Of a DNA stretch of 64,000 nucleotides, positions 787 through 12,033 are shown piece by piece. The notes under the pieces were generated by a model that ran no database searches, was not told where the DNA came from, and saw nothing but the letters and a program-made list of their open reading frames with translations. The stretch spans positions 1 through 64,000 of the forward strand of contig NZ_SLWU01000001.1 of the NCBI RefSeq assembly GCF_004345675.1, given 5' to 3'. A program made the position numbers and the translations under genes. The first letter of the stretch is position 1. Each line of letters begins with the position of its first letter. The DNA comes from Caldanaerobacter subterraneus. Lineage in GTDB: Bacteria; Bacillota; Thermoanaerobacteria; Thermoanaerobacterales; Thermoanaerobacteraceae.

Positions 787-817
787 AAGCTCCCTTTATG
801 GGAGCTTTATTTTTTTA
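787..817 (+). terminator. Terminator of the rRNA operon
   Basis: An eight-base-pair stem, AAGCTCCC (787-794) with GGGAGCTT (800-807), is followed by a T-rich run on the + strand. It sits just past the 5S gene and touches the stop codon of the convergent TusA-like gene. The reverse strand lacks a U tract, so it mainly serves the rRNA transcript. Confidence 0.85.
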
Positions 818-1025
818 TATATACTTCCCACACACCTTTTAGCACCTCTTTTACTTCCATAGAGCAATTTAATTTAGAAAAATATGTTTCCAAATTGTCT
901 AACGTACACCTGTGATCCACCACAACTTTTAAAATCTCCCCTTCTTTCATTTCTTCGTATTTCTTTTTGGCCTTTAGAAGTGGAAGAGGGCATATTTCTC
1001 CCATGCACATAATCTCATGAACCAT
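807..1025 (-). CDS. TusA/SirA-family sulfur-carrier protein (first copy)
   Basis: A small (72 aa) TusA-fold protein with the family's Cys-Pro-x-Pro motif (ICPLPLLKAK) near the N-terminus. In this family that cysteine carries sulfur as a persulfide. The ATG at 1025 is preferred because AAGGG at 1034-1038 lies eight bases upstream; a GTG at 1034 would extend it by three residues but leaves no room for a ribosome site. It follows the LysR gene with only a short gap and is probably cotranscribed with it, divergently from a second TusA-like gene. An extra cysteine precedes the CPxP motif. A role in sulfane-sulfur handling fits the context, but the partner is inferred. Confidence 0.85.
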   Translation of the reverse strand: MVHEIMCMGEICPLPLLKAKKKYEEMKEGEILKVVVDHRCTLDNLETYFSKLNCSMEVKEVLKGVWEVYIKK

Positions 1026-1036
1026 TTTCAGCACCC

Positions 1037-1930
1037 TTAGCAGAAAAAATCTTTACCGTTATTTTTTATGAAATCGATGAAGTCCATTTTGGACTTTTTG
1101 TAAATTTTTTTGTTGTATATTAAAGAATAACTGTAGTTAAATTCTATGCCTTCTACTTCAACTATGGACAAGGTTTTAGTATATAATTCCTTTTTTATGG
1201 CTATATAAGGCAAAATAGAAAGACCATGTCCTGCAGCCACGGAGGACTTAATTGATTCAATAGAAGGAGATTCCATTTCAATCTTTAACTTTTTTATATC
1301 AATTTCGTGGGCAAGTAAAGTCTCTTCAATTATTTTGCGCAAAGCGCACTTTCTATGTATTATAAAAAAATTATAACGCAATAATTTGTTTTTTGACAAA
1401 CTTTTTTCTTCCCAGTTGCCGCTCGCTACAAAATGCATTTTGAAATCTCCTAAAGGAATGCAAGAAATGTTTTCATCTACATAACAACCTTCTATAAAGC
1501 CTATGTCTATTCCTCCTTCTTTTACGTTGTATATCACTTCAGGTGTAAAATTGTGCTCTACATGCACTGTGATGTTTTTATACCTTCTTTTGAATTCGTG
1601 CAGGGTACAAGGGAGGGCATATTGCCCAATAGTAGGGCAGGCAGAAATTGTTAATCTGTTTATGCAGTTGTTTTCACAGCACTCTAAGTCTTTTACCATG
1701 TTGTCGTACAAATTCAATATCCTTTCTGCATATTGATAAACTAATTCTCCGGCTGGTGTAGGAAAGACTCCTCTATTGGTGCGCTTTAAAAGAGTTGCTT
1801 TCAAGTCTTTTTCTAATGCTTTTATTTGTTGACTTATGGTTGGCTGAGAGAGGTACAACTCTCTTGCCGCTGAAGAAATGCTTTTGTAATATACAGTTTT
1901 ATAAAATGCCCTTAAGTTTTCAATATTCAT
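1037..1930 (-). CDS. LysR-family transcriptional regulator
   Basis: A 297-aa LysR-type regulator. The N-terminal winged helix-turn-helix is clear (SAARELYLSQPTISQQIKAL, residues ~20-39), followed by the usual linker helix and a periplasmic-binding-like effector domain. It is transcribed away from the tusA-yeeE-dsr cluster, the usual arrangement of a LysR protein and the operon it controls, and it is followed by a TusA-like gene. Family knowledge (CysB, CysL, YeiE types) makes a sulfur-related inducer plausible, but the ligand cannot be read from sequence. The 180-bp gap to the divergent operon contains a long inverted repeat that may be its operator. Confidence 0.9.
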   Translation of the reverse strand: MNIENLRAFYKTVYYKSISSAARELYLSQPTISQQIKALEKDLKATLLKRTNRGVFPTPAGELVYQYAERILNLYDNMVKDLECCENNCINRLTISACPTIGQYALPCTLHEFKRRYKNITVHVEHNFTPEVIYNVKEGGIDIGFIEGCYVDENISCIPLGDFKMHFVASGNWEEKSLSKNKLLRYNFFIIHRKCALRKIIEETLLAHEIDIKKLKIEMESPSIESIKSSVAAGHGLSILPYIAIKKELYTKTLSIVEVEGIEFNYSYSLIYNKKIYKKSKMDFIDFIKNNGKDFFC

Positions 1931-2110: not shown

Positions 2111-2353
2111 ATGAGTAATGAAGTAAAGCCTACCTATACTTTAGATGAAAGAGGAGAGGTATGCCCTGTTCCAGATGTGGACACCAGAAGAAAACTCAAA
2201 GAGATGAAATCAGGTGAAATACTGGAAGTACTTATTGATTACGCTCTTTCTAAAGAAAGGATTCCAGCAGGAGTAAAGGAAGTAGGAGGAGAGGTAATAT
2301 CCATTGAAGAAATAGGGCCAAGCGAGTGGCGAATTCTCATTAAAAAGCTTTGA
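2111..2353 (+). CDS. TusA-family sulfur-carrier protein (second copy, next to YeeE/YedE)
   Basis: An 80-aa TusA-like protein with the persulfide-carrying motif in RGEVCPVPDVDT (Cys at about residue 18). It starts behind a strong AAGGAGG site. Its stop is followed 20 bases later by the YeeE/YedE transporter gene. Such pairs are known as TsuB/TsuA, in which the TusA-like protein is thought to receive sulfur from thiosulfate entering through the channel. It is the first gene of the divergent operon opposite the LysR gene, so it is a likely target of that regulator. Confidence 0.88.
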   Translation: MSNEVKPTYTLDERGEVCPVPDVDTRRKLKEMKSGEILEVLIDYALSKERIPAGVKEVGGEVISIEEIGPSEWRILIKKL

Positions 2354-2373
2354 TGAGTCAAGGGGGAGATTTT

Positions 2374-3390
2374 ATGGATCCGAGATTACAGGGGCTTTTG
2401 GTAGGTATACTTTTTGGCATAGTTTTACAAAGAGGAAGGATTTGTTTTAACTCAGCGATCAGAGATGTGAAGATGACAAAAGACAATTACCTGATGAAGT
2501 TAGCTTTGCTTGCAATACTGGTGGAGACGATTGGCTTTCATCTGGCGGCGCAACTGGGTTGGATTAAATTAAATCCAAAACCTTTGATTCCTCTTGCTCA
2601 GATCATAGGCGGTTTCTTATTTGGTATGGGTATGGTTCTAGCAGGTGGTTGTGCCAGCGGTGTTACTTATAGGATAGGTGAAGGTTATATAACAGCATTT
2701 ATTGCAGCAGTCTTCTATGGAATCACTGCAGCAGCTGTAAAAGGTGGTCCTTTATCTTTTGTAAATAGGTGGATGGGTAAGCCCATAACTACTACTAATA
2801 ACCCGGGAGGATTTTACGCTGCAAAAGATGGAGCTGTCAATTTAACTCTGGCAAATCTTTTAAATATTAATCCATGGATTGTAGCAATTATTTTTGCTTT
2901 GTTACTTCTCATAGTACTGGTATTTTGGAAGACTACTGAAAGAAAAGTTTCAGGGCTTAACTGGATAACAGGCGGTATTGCTTTAGGACTTGTAGGAGTT
3001 ATAGCATATCTTTCTCAAAAGACTTATCCCCTTGGCATCACAGGAGGTTGGGTGAATCTTTTCAGAACTACTACTGCAAATTTAGACCTCACTCAGCCTA
3101 TTCCGTACAACTGGGAAGGAATGGAAATAGTAGGGATCATAATTGGTGCGTATTTAGCAGCACTTTTTGCAAAAGAATTCAGATTAAGAGTTCCAAAGGA
3201 CCCTAAGACTTTTGTCCAGGTAGCAGTAGGCGGTATTTTAATGGGATTTGGTGCAGGAAGTGCTGGAGGATGCAATATAGGGCACATTCTTTCGGGACTT
3301 CCCCATTTAGCTATAAGTTCAATAGTGTTTACAATCTTTGCAGTGTTGGGAAACTGGTTTATGGTTTGGTACCTTTTTGAGAGAAAATAA
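2374..3390 (+). CDS. YeeE/YedE (TsuA-type) thiosulfate uptake membrane protein
   Basis: A 338-aa polytopic membrane protein of the YeeE/YedE family. The ATG at 2374 is chosen because GGGGGAG lies seven bases upstream; an earlier in-frame start overlaps the preceding stop and has no ribosome site. Three cysteines sit in the conserved family contexts: C24 (RICFNSA), C93 (AGGCASG) and C300 (GGCNIGH). In characterised TsuA, three such cysteines line the thiosulfate path. Many hydrophobic helices fill the rest. The adjacent TusA-like gene supports thiosulfate import; selenium or other sulfur compounds remain possible. Confidence 0.88.
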   Translation: MDPRLQGLLVGILFGIVLQRGRICFNSAIRDVKMTKDNYLMKLALLAILVETIGFHLAAQLGWIKLNPKPLIPLAQIIGGFLFGMGMVLAGGCASGVTYRIGEGYITAFIAAVFYGITAAAVKGGPLSFVNRWMGKPITTTNNPGGFYAAKDGAVNLTLANLLNINPWIVAIIFALLLLIVLVFWKTTERKVSGLNWITGGIALGLVGVIAYLSQKTYPLGITGGWVNLFRTTTANLDLTQPIPYNWEGMEIVGIIIGAYLAALFAKEFRLRVPKDPKTFVQVAVGGILMGFGAGSAGGCNIGHILSGLPHLAISSIVFTIFAVLGNWFMVWYLFERK

Positions 3391-3443
3391 GTGGGAGGGC
3401 GGCTTTGCCCTTCCCACAAAATTTTAAGAGGAGGGATAGATGT

Positions 3444-3797
3444 ATGCATGTAACAATACAGGTAAATGTACCCCCTTATACAAATGAGGATATGGATACT
3501 GCAATCCATCTCGCAGAAGCTCTTTTGAAAAGGGGACATAAGGTTTCAATATTTTTATTTGCTGATTCTGTACTTGCCGCAAACAAACTTGTTAAACCTA
3601 TGAAGGTTGATAGAAATATTCCTTCAAAACTTCGTGAGCTTTCTGAAAAAGGTGTGGAAGTTCACATTTGCGGCCTTTGTGCTCAGTACAGAGGGATTGG
3701 CGAGGATATGAAAATTGAAGGCTCAGATTTTTCTGGAGTGCCAGAGATGGCAGCGCTTATATACAATTCCGATAGGTACATCAATTTACTGCCTTAG
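3444..3797 (+). CDS. DsrE/DsrF-like sulfur-relay protein
   Basis: A 117-aa protein of the DsrE/DsrF (TusD/TusC) fold. The ATG at 3444 lies behind AAGAGGAGGG; the longer reading frame upstream has no ribosome site. The sequence shows the family's beta-alpha start (VTIQVNVPPYTNEDMDTAIH) and, near residue 77, a CxxC pair in HICGLCAQYRG where DsrE relatives carry the sulfur-binding cysteine. It opens a run of three small Dsr-like genes. Its role is inferred as accepting persulfide sulfur from TusA. Confidence 0.82.
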   Translation: MHVTIQVNVPPYTNEDMDTAIHLAEALLKRGHKVSIFLFADSVLAANKLVKPMKVDRNIPSKLRELSEKGVEVHICGLCAQYRGIGEDMKIEGSDFSGVPEMAALIYNSDRYINLLP

Positions 3798-3809
3798 GGG
3801 GTGTAAAAA

Positions 3810-4169
3810 GTGAAAAAAGTTTTATTTGCAGTGTATACTTCTCCTGTAGGAAGTATTTGGATAAATGAGGCTTTCAGAAGTGCGTTTGGAATGTACGGAG
3901 AAGACCTTGAACCTGCGGTGCTCTTTGTTGAGGAGGCTGTTTTGGCTGTTAGGTCTTCCTGTAAGCCAGAGCTGATTGGGTGTCTGCCTTTGGCGATGAC
4001 TTTTAAGTATATTGAGAAGTATCAGACGCCTGTTTATGCGGTAAAGGAAGATTTAGATAAGTTCAATATAAAAGAAGATGAAATTGCTCCTCAGTGGAAT
4101 TTAAAAATTGTGTCAAAAGATGAGCTGCCGGAATTTGTCCATTCTTTTGATAAAGTAGTGATTTTCTAG
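3810..4169 (+). CDS. DsrE/F-family protein (TusC-like position)
   Basis: A 119-aa protein that begins with GTG 12 bases after the previous gene, behind a G-rich ribosome site. The opening KKVLFAVYTSPVGS and overall length fit the DsrE/DsrF-like superfamily. Two cysteines (RSSCKPE and IGCLPL) are the candidate sulfur carriers. Together with its neighbours it copies the three-gene TusDCB/DsrEFH arrangement, whose products form a hexamer in other bacteria. The assignment rests on order, size and a loose motif match, so the exact subfamily is less certain. Confidence 0.72.
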   Translation: MKKVLFAVYTSPVGSIWINEAFRSAFGMYGEDLEPAVLFVEEAVLAVRSSCKPELIGCLPLAMTFKYIEKYQTPVYAVKEDLDKFNIKEDEIAPQWNLKIVSKDELPEFVHSFDKVVIF

Positions 4170-4180
4170 GAGGTGAAAGT

Positions 4181-4459
4181 ATGGCCTTGATAATAGTAAA
4201 GAAAAGTCCTTCTGAAAAAATTTCCGAATTTTTATTAAACCTTGCTCTGCCTCAGGATAAGGTTTTATTTGTGCAGGACGGCGTAATTTTTGCTGCTTGT
4301 AAAAATGTGAAGAATCTTGTGAAAGAGGGAGTTGAACTTTTTGCTCTAAAAGAAGATTTTATTGCAAGGGGATTTGATGAAAAGGATAGCGAAGTGACTT
4401 TGGTGGATTATGATGGATGGGCGGAACTTATCGAGAAGGAGGAAAAAGTGATTTCTTAA
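4181..4459 (+). CDS. DsrH/TusB-like protein
   Basis: A 92-aa product beginning MALIIVKKSP behind an AGGAGG site. Size, the hydrophobic strand LFVQDGVIFA and a single cysteine (AACKNVK) match the DsrH/TusB family, the smallest partner of the DsrEFH/TusBCD hexamer. It follows the previous gene by 11 bases and precedes the lipoamide dehydrogenase gene by 30, so all appear to share one transcript. Confidence 0.75.
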   Translation: MALIIVKKSPSEKISEFLLNLALPQDKVLFVQDGVIFAACKNVKNLVKEGVELFALKEDFIARGFDEKDSEVTLVDYDGWAELIEKEEKVIS

Positions 4460-4489
4460 TTTACAAAATTTATATTGGAGGTAGAGTAA

Positions 4490-5875
4490 ATGGAAAACCT
4501 TCATACCGGAGAATATGACTTGGCTGTCATAGGCGGAGGGCCTGGAGGGTATGTGGCGGCTATCAAAGCTGCTAAAAAAGGGGCAAAAGTAGCTCTGTTT
4601 GAAAAGGATAAATTAGGGGGCACATGTCTTAATAGAGGTTGTATACCTACAAAGGCTTATGCAAGAGCTGCTGAGGTCTATGGAATTTTAAAAAAGGCAA
4701 AAGAGTTTGGCTTTGATATTCAAATAAATTATTTTGATTATGCGCAAGTAGTGAAGAGAAAGGATACCATTGTAGGGGAACTTGTTGAAGGCATTAAGGC
4801 TTTGCTTAAAGCCAATAAAATAGAGGTCTTCAATAAAGAAGCGAAGGTAGACAAAGAGAAGAATGTAATTTTTGAGGGAGAAAAAATCAAAGCGAAAAAC
4901 ATTATAATTGCTACTGGTTCATCTCCTGCAGAGCTTCCAATTGAAGGCATTGATTCGAAAAATGTTCTAAATAGCGATACAATTTTGGAGATAACGTCTT
5001 TACCCAAAAGTTTATGCATTATAGGTGGCGGAGTAATAGGGATGGAATTTGCTTTTATAATGAACCAATTTGGAGTAGAAGTGTATGTGGTTGAAATGAT
5101 GCCTAATATCCTCCCTTCCCTTGATAAAAAAGTAAGTTCTGCTGTTAAATTTGCTGCTCAGAAGAGAGGCATTAAGATTTATACTTCTTCTACTGTGGAA
5201 AAAGTAGAGGAGGAGGGAGAAAACTCTGTAGTTACGATTAGAAGAGGTGATGATATTAAGAAAATATCTGTTGATAAAGTGTTTGTTTCTATTGGAAGAA
5301 AGTTAAATACAAGTATAGGGCCAATTGTAGATTTGCTTGAATTTGATAAGAAAGCGATTAAAGTCGATGAGCACATGAGGACAAACATAGAGGGTGTTTG
5401 GGCTGTAGGAGATGTGACAGGTAAAATGATGCTGGCCCATGTAGCTTCTTCACAGGGAGAAGTGGCAGTTGACAATATTTTTGGAAAGTCGAGAACTTTG
5501 GATTACTACAAGATACCTGCAGCTGTTTTTACAGAACCAGAAATTGGATATTTCGGGTATACAGAAGAGGAGGCCAAAGAAAAATTTGGAGAAATTAAAG
5601 TAGGAAGATTTGACTTTAAAAATAACGGGAGAGCCAAAACTTATGGTGAGACAGAAGGATTTGCCAAGATAATTTCAACTGAAGATGGAGAAGTAGTTGG
5701 GGCATGGGTAGTAGGTAGTGGTGCATCAGAGCTTGTGCACATAATTTCAACGGCTTGTCAGAGCGGAGCAAAAGCGGAAGAATTGAAAGATGTGGTCTAT
5801 GCCCATCCTACAAAGAGCGAAACTATTATGGAGGCTTTTAAAGATATTTTCAAAGAGGCAATCCACAAAATTTAA
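4490..5875 (+). CDS. lpdA: Dihydrolipoamide dehydrogenase (E3-type flavoprotein)
   Basis: A 461-aa pyridine-nucleotide disulfide oxidoreductase. The FAD-binding GGGPGG is at residues ~15-20. The redox disulfide is C46/C51 in [13 protein letters not shown]. The NAD-binding GGGVIGME lies mid-protein, and the C-terminal catalytic HPTKSE is present. All hallmarks of active E3 (dihydrolipoamide + NAD+ to lipoamide + NADH, reversible) are intact. It lies between the Dsr-like genes and a GcvH-like lipoyl protein gene, with no dehydrogenase E1/E2 or glycine-cleavage P/T genes in the window. The natural partner is therefore probably the downstream lipoyl protein, within sulfur metabolism. Confidence 0.95.
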
Positions 5876-5900
5876 ATTATTAAAAATTGGAGGGACAAAA

Positions 5901-6278
5901 ATGAAAGTTTTGGAAGATTTGTATTACTCAAAGGACCATGTATGGGTAAAAGTAGAAGGGAATAAAGCTTATATTGGCATAACTGATTATGCCCAGGACT
6001 CTTTAGGGGATGCGGAGTACATTGAACTTCCTGAAGTTGGAACAGAGTTTACAGCTGGAGATGTGCTTGGAGTTATAGAATCTGCAAAAGCGGCTTCTGA
6101 CGTTTATATACCTGTAGACGGAGAAGTAATTGAAGTGAACAATGCTGTAGCTGAAGACCCTTCTTTGGTAAATAGCGATCCCTATGGAAGCTGGCTTGTT
6201 GCTGTAAGGTTGAAAGATAAAGCTCAAGTTGAAAAGCTTATGAAGGCAGAAGAGTACAAAAAATTTTTGGAAGAGTAA
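5901..6278 (+). CDS. GcvH-like lipoyl-carrier protein
   Basis: A 125-aa lipoyl-domain protein of the glycine-cleavage H type, starting at ATG 5901 behind GGAGGG. The lipoylation site is K63 in [16 protein letters not shown], and the C-terminal region ([12 protein letters not shown]) is H-protein-like. It ends the sulfur cluster and is followed by a terminator. No gcvT or gcvP gene lies in this window. In sulfur oxidisers, GcvH-like lipoate-binding proteins (LbpA) work with TusA and DsrE, so a sulfur role is an attractive inference. Service in an ordinary glycine cleavage system encoded elsewhere is the main alternative. Confidence 0.9.
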
Positions 6279-6280
6279 TA

Positions 6281-6306
6281 AAGGGCCCTTTACGGGGCCT
6301 TTTTTA
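6281..6306 (+). terminator. Terminator of the sulfur cluster
   Basis: An AAGGGCCC/GGGGCCTT hairpin with one G-G mismatch and a TTTAC loop, followed by TTTTTTAG. It lies two bases after the GcvH-like stop codon. Confidence 0.85.
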
Positions 6307-10270: not shown

Positions 10271-10596
10271 AGTTAGTTCTTGCGATCGTACAGGATGAAG
10301 ATGTCAGAAGGTTGATGGATGGGCTTACGGAGGGAGGATTCAGCTTTACAAGGATTGCTTCTACAGGTGGTTTTTTGAGGTCTGGCAATACCACCTTGAT
10401 AATAGGAGTGGAAGATGATAAATTGGACGATGTCATAAGCATAATAGAAAAGAAGTGCAAAACCCGTGATAGAATAATAACTTCACCTACTCCAATGGGA
10501 GGGGCTACAGATATCTTCCTTCCGCAGGCTGTTGAAGTGACAATTGGCGGTGCTACAGTGTTTGTGCTCGATGTAGAAAAATTCTTTAGGATATAA
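10267..10596 (+). CDS. darA: DarA (YaaQ), PII-like cyclic-di-AMP receptor
   Basis: A 109-aa protein of the DarA/PstA family, a PII-like trimer that binds c-di-AMP. Characteristic parts are VQDEDVRRLMDGL, the binding stretch TRIASTGGFLRSGNTTL and GVEDDKLDDVI. No catalytic residues are expected. It sits between tmk and yaaR as in B. subtilis. Its downstream target is unknown in most species. Confidence 0.95.
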   Translation: MKLVLAIVQDEDVRRLMDGLTEGGFSFTRIASTGGFLRSGNTTLIIGVEDDKLDDVISIIEKKCKTRDRIITSPTPMGGATDIFLPQAVEVTIGGATVFVLDVEKFFRI

Positions 10597-10610
10597 AAAG
10601 GGTGTTTGCT

Positions 10611-11051
10611 ATGAGGGTTAATGAAGTCAGGCTTTCAAAAGTGGTTAGTGAAATGAAAAGCGAGATTTCAAGAACGTATAAAGTGGAGAAAAAATTTGGA
10701 GAAACTTTTGAAAAAGAGTTAGACAGAGTTTATAAAGATAAATTGTCAGAAATTTTGTCAGAAATAGATGAAGCGGCTGACAAATTAAAAGAAAGTTTGA
10801 ATTTACAAGACCTTCTCAAGTATAAGAAGCTTGTAAAGAAGTTTTTGCAAGAAGCCACAGAAAACATGCTCAAATACACTAAAAAAGAACATGTAGATTT
10901 AAGAGGAAGAAGGAGAATATATTCTCTAGTGGAAAAGGTGGACAAAGAGCTGGAAAAGCTTACAGAGGAGTTTCTAAAAGAGTCTAAAAAGTTAGAACTG
11001 CTAAAAATGATTGATGATATAAGAGGTTTGTTAATAGACATTTACTCGTAA
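10611..11051 (+). CDS. YaaR-family protein (DUF327)
   Basis: A 146-aa, strongly charged, mostly helical protein in the position of yaaR, between darA and holB. The start at 10611 is chosen because AAAAAGGG lies eight bases before it. Motifs such as LQDLLKYKKLVKKFLQEA and LRGRRRIYSLVEKVD fit the family. The function is unknown. Confidence 0.85.
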   Translation: MRVNEVRLSKVVSEMKSEISRTYKVEKKFGETFEKELDRVYKDKLSEILSEIDEAADKLKESLNLQDLLKYKKLVKKFLQEATENMLKYTKKEHVDLRGRRRIYSLVEKVDKELEKLTEEFLKESKKLELLKMIDDIRGLLIDIYS

Positions 11052-11055
11052 GGTG

Positions 11056-12033
11056 ATGAAGTTGCTTAGGGTGTATGGCCACGAAGAGATTCTAAAAGTA
11101 TTTCGCAATATAATAAATCAGAATAAAATTTCTAATGCCTACTTATTTGTTGGGGAAGAAGGTTTAGGAAAGAGATTTTTGGCTGAATATTTTGCAATGA
11201 TGGTAAACTGCAAAGGTACTGATAAGCCTTGTTTTAAGTGTAGCTCTTGTGTAAAAATGCTTAAGAAAAGTCATCCAGATGTGTTTATAATAGAACCAGA
11301 GGGAGATTCTATAAAAGTAGAAACTGTAAGGTATATAAACGCTGAAATAAATATAAAGCCTTATGAGTCTTTTAAAAAGGTATTTATAATTGACAGGGCT
11401 GATAAAATGACTCCTGCAGCTCAGAACGCTTTTCTTAAAACCTTAGAAGAACCGCCTTTATACGGCCTTTTCATACTAATCTCACCTCAAATAGAAGCTC
11501 TTTTGCCTACAGTAGTATCTCGCTGCAATGTGGTAAGATTTAAAAGAGAAAGAAAAGAAGTGATTAAAGAATACCTGATTGGTGAAAAAGGCGTCAGCGA
11601 AGAAGAGGCAGAAGTTCTGGCACATCTCGCGGATGGCAATTTTGGTGAGGCGGACAAATTGGTGGACGAAAATTATAAAAAGCTTCGCAGCAATGTGCTT
11701 TCTGAGATTGAGAAAATTTTTGAGAAAAAAGGTTTTGAAGTGCTTAATGAGTACAGCTTTTTTGAGGAAAATAAGGAACAGATTGAGGAGGTTTTAAAAA
11801 TATTCCTCTCTTATTTAAGAGATGTGTTGGTCTTTAAAACAACCAAAAATTTGAAATTTATAAAGAATGTGGATTATATAGATTCTATAGAAAAATTGGA
11901 ATCTAAGTTGACCTTTAAGAGATTAAATAATATAATCAATAGAATAGAGCAGTTTAATTCCCAGCTTAAAAGCAATGTAAACTATCAGTTGGCTGTAGAG
12001 AATTTACTTTTAGATATTTTAGGGGGTCAATAA
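11056..12033 (+). CDS. holB: DNA polymerase III delta' subunit
   Basis: A clamp-loader subunit of about 325 aa. It has AYLFVGEEGLGKRFLAEYF at the degenerate P-loop, a zinc-binding cysteine cluster (C-KGTDKP-CFKCSSC) and sensor-like NAFLKTLEEPP. HolB works with HolA and DnaX to load the sliding clamp. The start is ambiguous: GTG 11053, ATG 11056 and TTG 11062 are in frame, and the AAGGTG site would best serve the TTG. Confidence 0.93.
   Translation: MKLLRVYGHEEILKVFRNIINQNKISNAYLFVGEEGLGKRFLAEYFAMMVNCKGTDKPCFKCSSCVKMLKKSHPDVFIIEPEGDSIKVETVRYINAEINIKPYESFKKVFIIDRADKMTPAAQNAFLKTLEEPPLYGLFILISPQIEALLPTVVSRCNVVRFKRERKEVIKEYLIGEKGVSEEEAEVLAHLADGNFGEADKLVDENYKKLRSNVLSEIEKIFEKKGFEVLNEYSFFEENKEQIEEVLKIFLSYLRDVLVFKTTKNLKFIKNVDYIDSIEKLESKLTFKRLNNIINRIEQFNSQLKSNVNYQLAVENLLLDILGGQ

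Follow-up and report, generated by a model that had tools for sequence, protein, structure and literature searches.

The DNA analysed here, called the window below, comprises the first 64,000 nucleotides of contig NZ_SLWU01000001.1 from Caldanaerobacter subterraneus (assembly GCF_004345675.1, a draft of 79 contigs that is 100% complete). At positions 2111-6278 lie seven co-directional genes in the order TusA1, TsuA, DsrE, DsrF, DsrH, Lpd and GcvH2, with intergenic gaps of 11-53 bp and a Shine-Dalgarno-like sequence before each gene. The set thus joins sulfur import and sulfur transfer proteins to a lipoyl protein and a dihydrolipoamide dehydrogenase. Families were assigned with hidden Markov models (HMMs), as follows:

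2111-2353, plus strand: TusA1, sulfur carrier paired with TsuA, with C18 in a CPVP motif (Pfam TusA, 5.8e-20)
2374-3390, plus strand: TsuA/YeeE thiosulfate transporter (NCBIfam NF052577 TsuA, 466 bits, cutoff 400)
3444-3797, plus strand: DsrE/TusD-like sulfurtransferase (Pfam DsrE, 1.2e-24; PDB relatives DsrE 2hy5 and TusD 2d1p)
3810-4169, plus strand: DsrF/TusC-like subunit (Pfam DsrE, 8e-7; TIGR03010 TusC, 4e-7, below cutoff)
4181-4459, plus strand: DsrH/TusB-like subunit (Pfam DsrH, 1.4e-20; TIGR03011 above cutoff)
4490-5875, plus strand: dihydrolipoamide dehydrogenase (E3), the cluster copy, lacking a lipoyl domain (TIGR01350, 501 bits, cutoff 408.8)
5901-6278, plus strand: GcvH2, H-like protein with the lipoyl lysine K63, Val at 14 and Ala at 62 (TIGR00527, 157, cutoff 116)
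6280-6303, plus strand: intrinsic terminator-like stem-loop at the operon end (10-pair stem, 4-base loop, T tail)
807-1034, minus strand: TusA2, a second TusA-like sulfur carrier, with a CPLP motif (Pfam TusA, 2.3e-20)
1037-1930, minus strand: LysR-type regulator, divergent from the operon (Pfam HTH_1 and LysR_substrate)

An earlier note on this DNA had described seven close, same-strand genes of these families ended by a single terminator, an Lpd with C46/C51 and HPT-SE, a GcvH-like protein with lipoyl lysine K63, and no glycine-cleavage gene in the window. All of this stood: the HMM scans agree, the residues are as described, the stem-loop is in place, and a sequence search of the window for gcvT and gcvP returned nothing. 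In the terminator scan the region was not enriched relative to shuffles; the stem-loop at 6280-6303 is singled out by its position, which fits the operon end. TsuA most likely starts at the ATG at 2374. No riboswitch, glycine riboswitch included, was found at the cluster. TusA2 and the divergent LysR gene are syntenic with the cluster in relatives, and LysR orthologues of 76-93% identity diverge from the same operon in seven of them; LysR is the probable regulator. Directly upstream of TusA2, positions 1-761 contain a 5S rRNA gene and the terminal part of a 23S rRNA gene.

The lipoyl protein is the most informative member of the set. A complete gcvT-gcvH1-gcvPA-gcvPB operon, with an adjacent lplA, lies on another contig of the same genome. 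Since that operon has its own H protein, GcvH1, the window protein is a second one, 74% identical to the first. The earlier note had correctly taken the lipoyl protein of the thiosulfate operon to be distinct from the glycine-cleavage H protein, and the case it had named as damaging, a complete gcvPT set in a genome with one H protein only, does not arise, as there are two. Its suggestion that gcvP and gcvT might be missing wherever the cluster is found failed, because gcv operons are present alongside the cluster. Among 24 genomes of the order Thermoanaerobacterales, GcvH2 lies beside DsrEFH in all eight that are DsrH-positive and is absent from the 16 others (Fisher p = 1.4e-6, uncorrected for relatedness). 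In one of these genomes, G009, a contig break separates Lpd from GcvH2, which still adjoins the same ROK gene. Co-occurrence of all seven genes, which the note had proposed as a check, holds for GcvH2 with DsrEFH and breaks down for Lpd, which three genomes have lost.

In the phylogenetic tree, GcvH2 forms a separate clade (98/99) within the genus's own GcvH proteins, so placed that it is, on the sequence evidence, a recent copy of the glycine-cleavage H protein that was duplicated within the genus. The copy in G021, a genome of another genus, is nested inside the GcvH2 group, which suggests horizontal transfer, and the G021 cluster was probably acquired in this way. Pairwise w values of 0.06-0.15 indicate that GcvH2 is under purifying selection. 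GcvH2 and the GcvH1 proteins of the genus show fixed differences at only seven sites. Four of the changes, E14V, V39E, V62A (adjoining the lipoyl lysine) and M99L, fall at positions invariant in 19/19 glycine-cleavage H proteins of the order; indeed, position 14 is Val in 7/7 distinct GcvH2 sequences and Glu in all 19 of the former. Five solved H proteins, when aligned, all have HEW and ESVK. In the E. coli H protein, Glu12/Glu14 lock the aminomethyl-lipoyl arm (PMC7733448). GcvH2 passes the TIGR00527 cutoff and keeps K63, but it does not have the Glu14 lock; with both Glu14 and Val62 lost, it looks to have been released from glycine cleavage. Position 14 is also altered in LbpA proteins (F, S or G, with G at 62) and in extra H-like proteins encoded by G006, G003 and G022 (T at 14, G or A at 62); the G006 gene belongs to a Wood-Ljungdahl operon.

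The earlier note had likened the lipoyl protein to LbpA, the carrier of the sHdr sulfur-oxidation route. The two share the H-protein fold, the lipoyl lysine, the link to TusA/DsrE and the absence of Glu14 and Val62 (LbpA/sHdr, PMC6067878). That identification is rejected on tree, signature and genome content. LbpA proteins are split from GcvH2 by a 100/99 branch, so that phylogeny puts GcvH2 inside the GcvH of the genus, far from LbpA, as a separate origin. There is no hdr-like cluster nearby and no CCG protein in the genome; sLpl and LipS1/S2 genes are absent from the window cluster, LplA being encoded beside gcvT elsewhere. The published two-Cys hallmark of LbpA, which has exceptions, is missing too (0 Cys in all GcvH2), a weak point given that three Firmicutes LbpA proteins have 0-1. 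A sulfur oxidation of LbpA type without a recognised Hdr complex would still unite TusA, DsrE, a lipoyl protein and Lpd, a combination found in Metallosphaera (PMC4175335) and in sHdr clusters. Against it stand the lack of a CCG/Hdr protein, the position of GcvH2 outside LbpA, and a fermentative genus that uses thiosulfate as an acceptor, for which the system would presumably run reductively; we consider oxidation highly improbable.

Other lipoyl proteins were also seen. H-like proteins with HTW and ESGK/ESAK motifs are encoded at L070 8295-8675, L072 18126-18545 and L074 174-548; the L070 gene is part of a Wood-Ljungdahl operon with its own Lpd, and no gcvP in the L072 genome (G003) exceeds the cutoff. 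At L071 7243-8097 and L073 6929-7780, a DGC domain is joined to a GcvH domain, and the surrounding operon includes ferredoxin-like and HdrA-like pieces; this is a further lipoyl protein.

The cluster Lpd retains the C46/C51 redox pair and an intact HPTKSE motif, as befits a dihydrolipoamide dehydrogenase. Relatives have a second Lpd beside gcv, which bears an N-terminal lipoyl domain and is 80-83% identical to the window copy. Both copies are present in G004 and G005. In G008 and G012 the gcv copy is present and only a 29-residue remnant of the cluster copy is left, and in G021 the gcv copy is accompanied by a transposase at the cluster Lpd site. Conversely, the cluster copy is kept in G006, whose gcv copy is wrecked, and in the window genome, where gcv has no Lpd beside it. 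A further Lpd, 44% identical, is found by lipA/lipB on contig C8. From this reciprocal loss, either copy seems sufficient, and one E3 looks to be common to GcvH1 and GcvH2. The same pattern counts against a dedicated cluster Lpd, such as the earlier note had assigned to re-reduction of the arm.

Reciprocal loss of the Lpd paralogues would also be expected if GcvH2 and Lpd were spare or relocated glycine-cleavage parts behind a sulfur operon, the cluster Lpd being the glycine-cleavage E3 in this organism. Both proteins are close paralogues of the genus's own glycine-cleavage components, GcvH2 having been born from GcvH1, and the gcv locus of the window genome has no Lpd. What such an explanation leaves unaccounted for is that GcvH2 is in 8/8 clusters and moves with the cluster, as in G021, yet GcvH1 is kept in each genome. 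Moreover, the residues that hold the aminomethyl arm are lost in fixed form from GcvH2, gcvT/P lie at another locus that supplies an H protein of its own, and the cluster has no glycine riboswitch. We judge the spare-parts explanation improbable.

Upstream of the lipoyl pair, the import and relay proteins are well conserved. TusA1 is 92-98% identical among relatives and keeps C18 in 8/8. TsuA exceeds its NCBIfam equivalog cutoff, and its C24, C93 and C300 are invariant in 9/9 sequences, Cryosericum included. C76/C79 of DsrE and C51/C58 of DsrF are invariant; the DsrH subunit has no conserved Cys, and its closest solved structure is T. maritima TM0979. In G006 (probably the acetogen T. kivui) DsrF is broken by a partial internal duplication (L012 6844-7267), the rest of the cluster being complete. 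A selenium role of YedE/YedF type was rejected: TsuA clears the cutoff of the thiosulfate equivalog but falls far short of the selenium models, and the genome has a separate, true YedF. A function in tRNA thiolation (TusBCDE) was judged unlikely given the linkage to TsuA, Lpd and GcvH2 and the absence of DsrH from 3/10 members of the genus.

The contiguous YeeE, TusA and DsrE/F/H genes correspond to the YTD, or yeeE-tusA-dsrEFH type II, cluster of cable bacteria and sulfur disproportionators, in which YeeE/YedE, TusA and three Dsr genes likewise form one unit (PMC13293266). The window differs from it in having no DsrAB, whose co-occurrence is usual though not universal, and in the addition of Lpd and GcvH2 with its lipoyl group. 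Its TsuA and paired TusA-family protein also resemble the TsuA/TsuB (YeeE/YeeD) uptake pair, to which the window adds a downstream DsrEFH-lipoyl-Lpd relay. In that pair, TsuA imports thiosulfate and YeeD produces H2S from it when given a thiol; YeeD has no known acceptor in either E. coli or Spirochaeta (PMC11073785).

A second line of evidence comes from the chromosomal site itself. T. pseudethanolicus ATCC 33223 (G007) and G011 have, instead of the DsrEFH-lipoyl cluster, a cassette of a YeeE half, TusA, another YeeE half and a TrxR-Trx fusion:

L079 10874-13512 and L080 1373-4093: alternative cassette

The fusion is a flavoprotein of thioredoxin-reductase fold with a CATC motif and a fused thioredoxin-like domain. 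The site lies between LysR-TusA2 (plus rRNA in G007) and a ROK glucokinase gene. The LysR orthologue beside the alternative cassette is 82% identical to that of the window, and TusA2 is present there as well. The same alternative set, with LysR and TusA2, occurs in family f3 and at L083 and L084. In each cassette type, a thiosulfate/sulfur importer and TusA are paired with a small carrier and with a disulfide reductase of the pyridine-nucleotide type. We read this shared composition at one site as functional equivalence, which suggests, by analogy, that the lipoyl/Lpd pair does a dithiol-reductase job equivalent to that of the TrxR-Trx fusion. T. wiegelii (G004) has the DsrEFH-GcvH2 cluster, and both it and T. 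pseudethanolicus take thiosulfate as electron acceptor (PMC5002420), its use by the latter being described independently (PMC10792681). Because T. pseudethanolicus does so without the DsrEFH-GcvH2 cassette, that cassette cannot be the only means by which the genus uses thiosulfate.

What is observed here is the gene content, the structure of the operon, the divergence of GcvH2 and the exchange of cassettes; the gene set is real, and it is both conserved and unusual. Taken together, we give an even chance to the reading that it is a LysR-linked operon for thiosulfate import and sulfane-sulfur relay, with a recruited GcvH2 and E3 Lpd, that releases sulfide reductively. In these terms it would be a variant of the TsuA-TusA-DsrEFH (YTD) system that depends on a lipoyl protein, whose chemistry is predicted and which may act as an electron sink. 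Somewhat more tentatively, we propose that GcvH2 is a neofunctionalised dihydrolipoyl persulfide reductase which, with Lpd and NADH, would convert TusA/DsrE sulfane sulfur to sulfide and would be interchangeable, at one site, with the TrxR-Trx fusion. Thiosulfate would be imported by TsuA and its sulfane sulfur placed on C18 of TusA as a persulfide (or perthiosulfonate), with sulfite leaving. The sulfur would be relayed by the DsrE/F cysteines to GcvH2, whose dihydrolipoyl arm would attack the persulfide, expel sulfide and close to lipoamide. Lpd would reopen the arm with NADH, the arm thus taking over the thiol role of the YeeD reaction. Import and the thiosulfate reactivity of TusA-family proteins are known for homologues; the later steps, and the direction of flow, are predicted. 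DsrE hands a thiosulfonate group to TusA (PMC4175335), dihydrolipoate takes sulfane sulfur from rhodanese in vitro (PMC6067878), and the T. maritima yeeE/dsrE/tusA unit is up 42.6-fold with thiosulfate, H2S rising (PMC9431562). The sulfane-sulfur route of the earlier note is therefore upheld in part: the diverged GcvH2 and the cassette swap speak for it, and its LbpA, dedicated-Lpd and gcv-absence components have fallen away.

A number of points weigh against the reductive reading. DsrEFH/TusA homologues in sulfur oxidisers work in the opposite direction. The standard potential of the thiosulfate/sulfide plus sulfite couple is near -0.40 V. That of lipoamide is -0.29 V (PMC6067878), and net reduction by NADH would thus be unfavourable unless the products are kept low. 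For one of these, sulfite, the window genome has no recognisable reductase. Neither TusA nor type II DsrEFH from cable bacteria became persulfidated when the recombinant proteins met thiosulfate (PMC13293266), and Metallosphaera TusA reacts with tetrathionate and not with thiosulfate (PMC4175335). The three genomes that lost the cluster Lpd keep GcvH2, with another Lpd remaining there, so the cluster copy is not a fixed partner. Caldisericota, with TsuA-DsrEFH and no lipoyl partner nearby, and T. maritima, with NSR, imply that a relay is workable without a lipoyl arm. The thiosulfate phenotypes come from relatives of the window organism, and the reading itself is built on sequence and homologue data.

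Other reductases were also sought as candidates for the terminal step. The window genome has no match to siroheme sulfite/nitrite reductase (PF01077), hence no DsrAB-type enzyme, and none to the Hdr CCG protein (PF02754), in agreement with the earlier note's view of a system without DsrAB or Hdr. Rhodanese (PF00581) and molybdopterin oxidoreductase (PF00384) gave no match either; the search covered these four families and an NSR/CoA-disulfide-reductase-like gene, with the membrane-bound MBX and further routes outside it. The NSR-like gene, followed by a selenium-type YedF gene, has one in-frame TAG (L076 3480-4820; G000:C14 about 10480-11817). It is intact in relatives, the comparison being with these and not with the T. 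maritima NSR sequence, and in G021 an intact copy lies near the cluster. The cassette might accordingly serve import and traffic only, with such a flavoprotein as terminal reductase elsewhere and the lipoyl protein carrying sulfur to it or to a different acceptor. T. maritima NSR does reduce thiosulfate with NAD(P)H (PMC9431562), and the interrupted reading frame, which counts against this arrangement, may be a sequencing error in a draft genome, a further point against the reductive reading. The alternative cassette, however, has its reductase inside the operon, and we give the NSR arrangement a low probability. The T. maritima system is otherwise close to that of the window, with TsuA, TusA and Dsr proteins in a thermophilic, thiosulfate-reducing fermenter; it differs in that reduction falls to a separate flavoprotein that uses NAD(P)H and no lipoyl protein is reported in the unit.

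The same machinery could also be assimilatory, supplying sulfide from thiosulfate for cysteine and Fe-S synthesis and not for electron disposal. E. coli TsuA/YeeD is assimilatory (PMC11073785), the window operon is single-copy and LysR-linked, and the genome has no siroheme reductase. Thiosulfate is, on the other hand, an electron acceptor for Thermoanaerobacter species (PMC5002420), and induction of the homologous T. maritima unit accompanies rising H2S (PMC9431562). An assimilatory role seems to us unlikely, though well short of negligible.

In the literature searched, we found no description of this TsuA-TusA-DsrEFH-Lpd-GcvH2 gene set and no assigned enzyme for sulfide formation from thiosulfate in Thermoanaerobacter, a genus for which this trait is classic. 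The pair of interchangeable cassettes points to specific candidates for the thiosulfate-to-sulfide enzyme and for the acceptors downstream of the TusA-family partner of TsuA. If the reductive reading is true, lipoic acid gains a reductive role in inorganic sulfur metabolism beside its known role in sHdr oxidation; an H protein was recruited independently, a clear example of an enzyme carrier that moved to another pathway by a small number of fixed substitutions; and soluble thiosulfate reduction would proceed without molybdenum, siroheme, rhodanese or Hdr proteins.

Beyond the genus, DsrH is rare in the phylum (11/399 genomes). Among other Firmicutes, L055 and L059 carry sHdr sets with LbpA, and L057 an sHdr set that yielded no GcvH-like open reading frame in the scan; L056 and L058 have DsrEFH/TusA with no lipoyl gene nearby. 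The Caldisericota proteins, from TsuA to DsrEFH, are 60-73% identical to those of the window and have no GcvH or Lpd nearby. From this distribution, the lipoyl addition appears to be specific to this bacterial family, on an older TsuA-DsrEFH core. In genus g3 (probably Thermoanaerobacterium), transporter and cluster are both missing from 8/9 genomes; for Thermoanaerobacterium, elemental sulfur is the described product of thiosulfate reduction (PMC4518999). At L054 5715-10960, DsrEFH genes are found with LbpA, an LplA-like ligase, two radical-SAM genes and an ArsR-TusA fusion. No Hdr gene was seen there in 14.8 kb, and the matches in the rest of that genome include no two-CCG protein of HdrB size (about 300 residues); this locus is a possible second Hdr-less lipoyl sulfur system.

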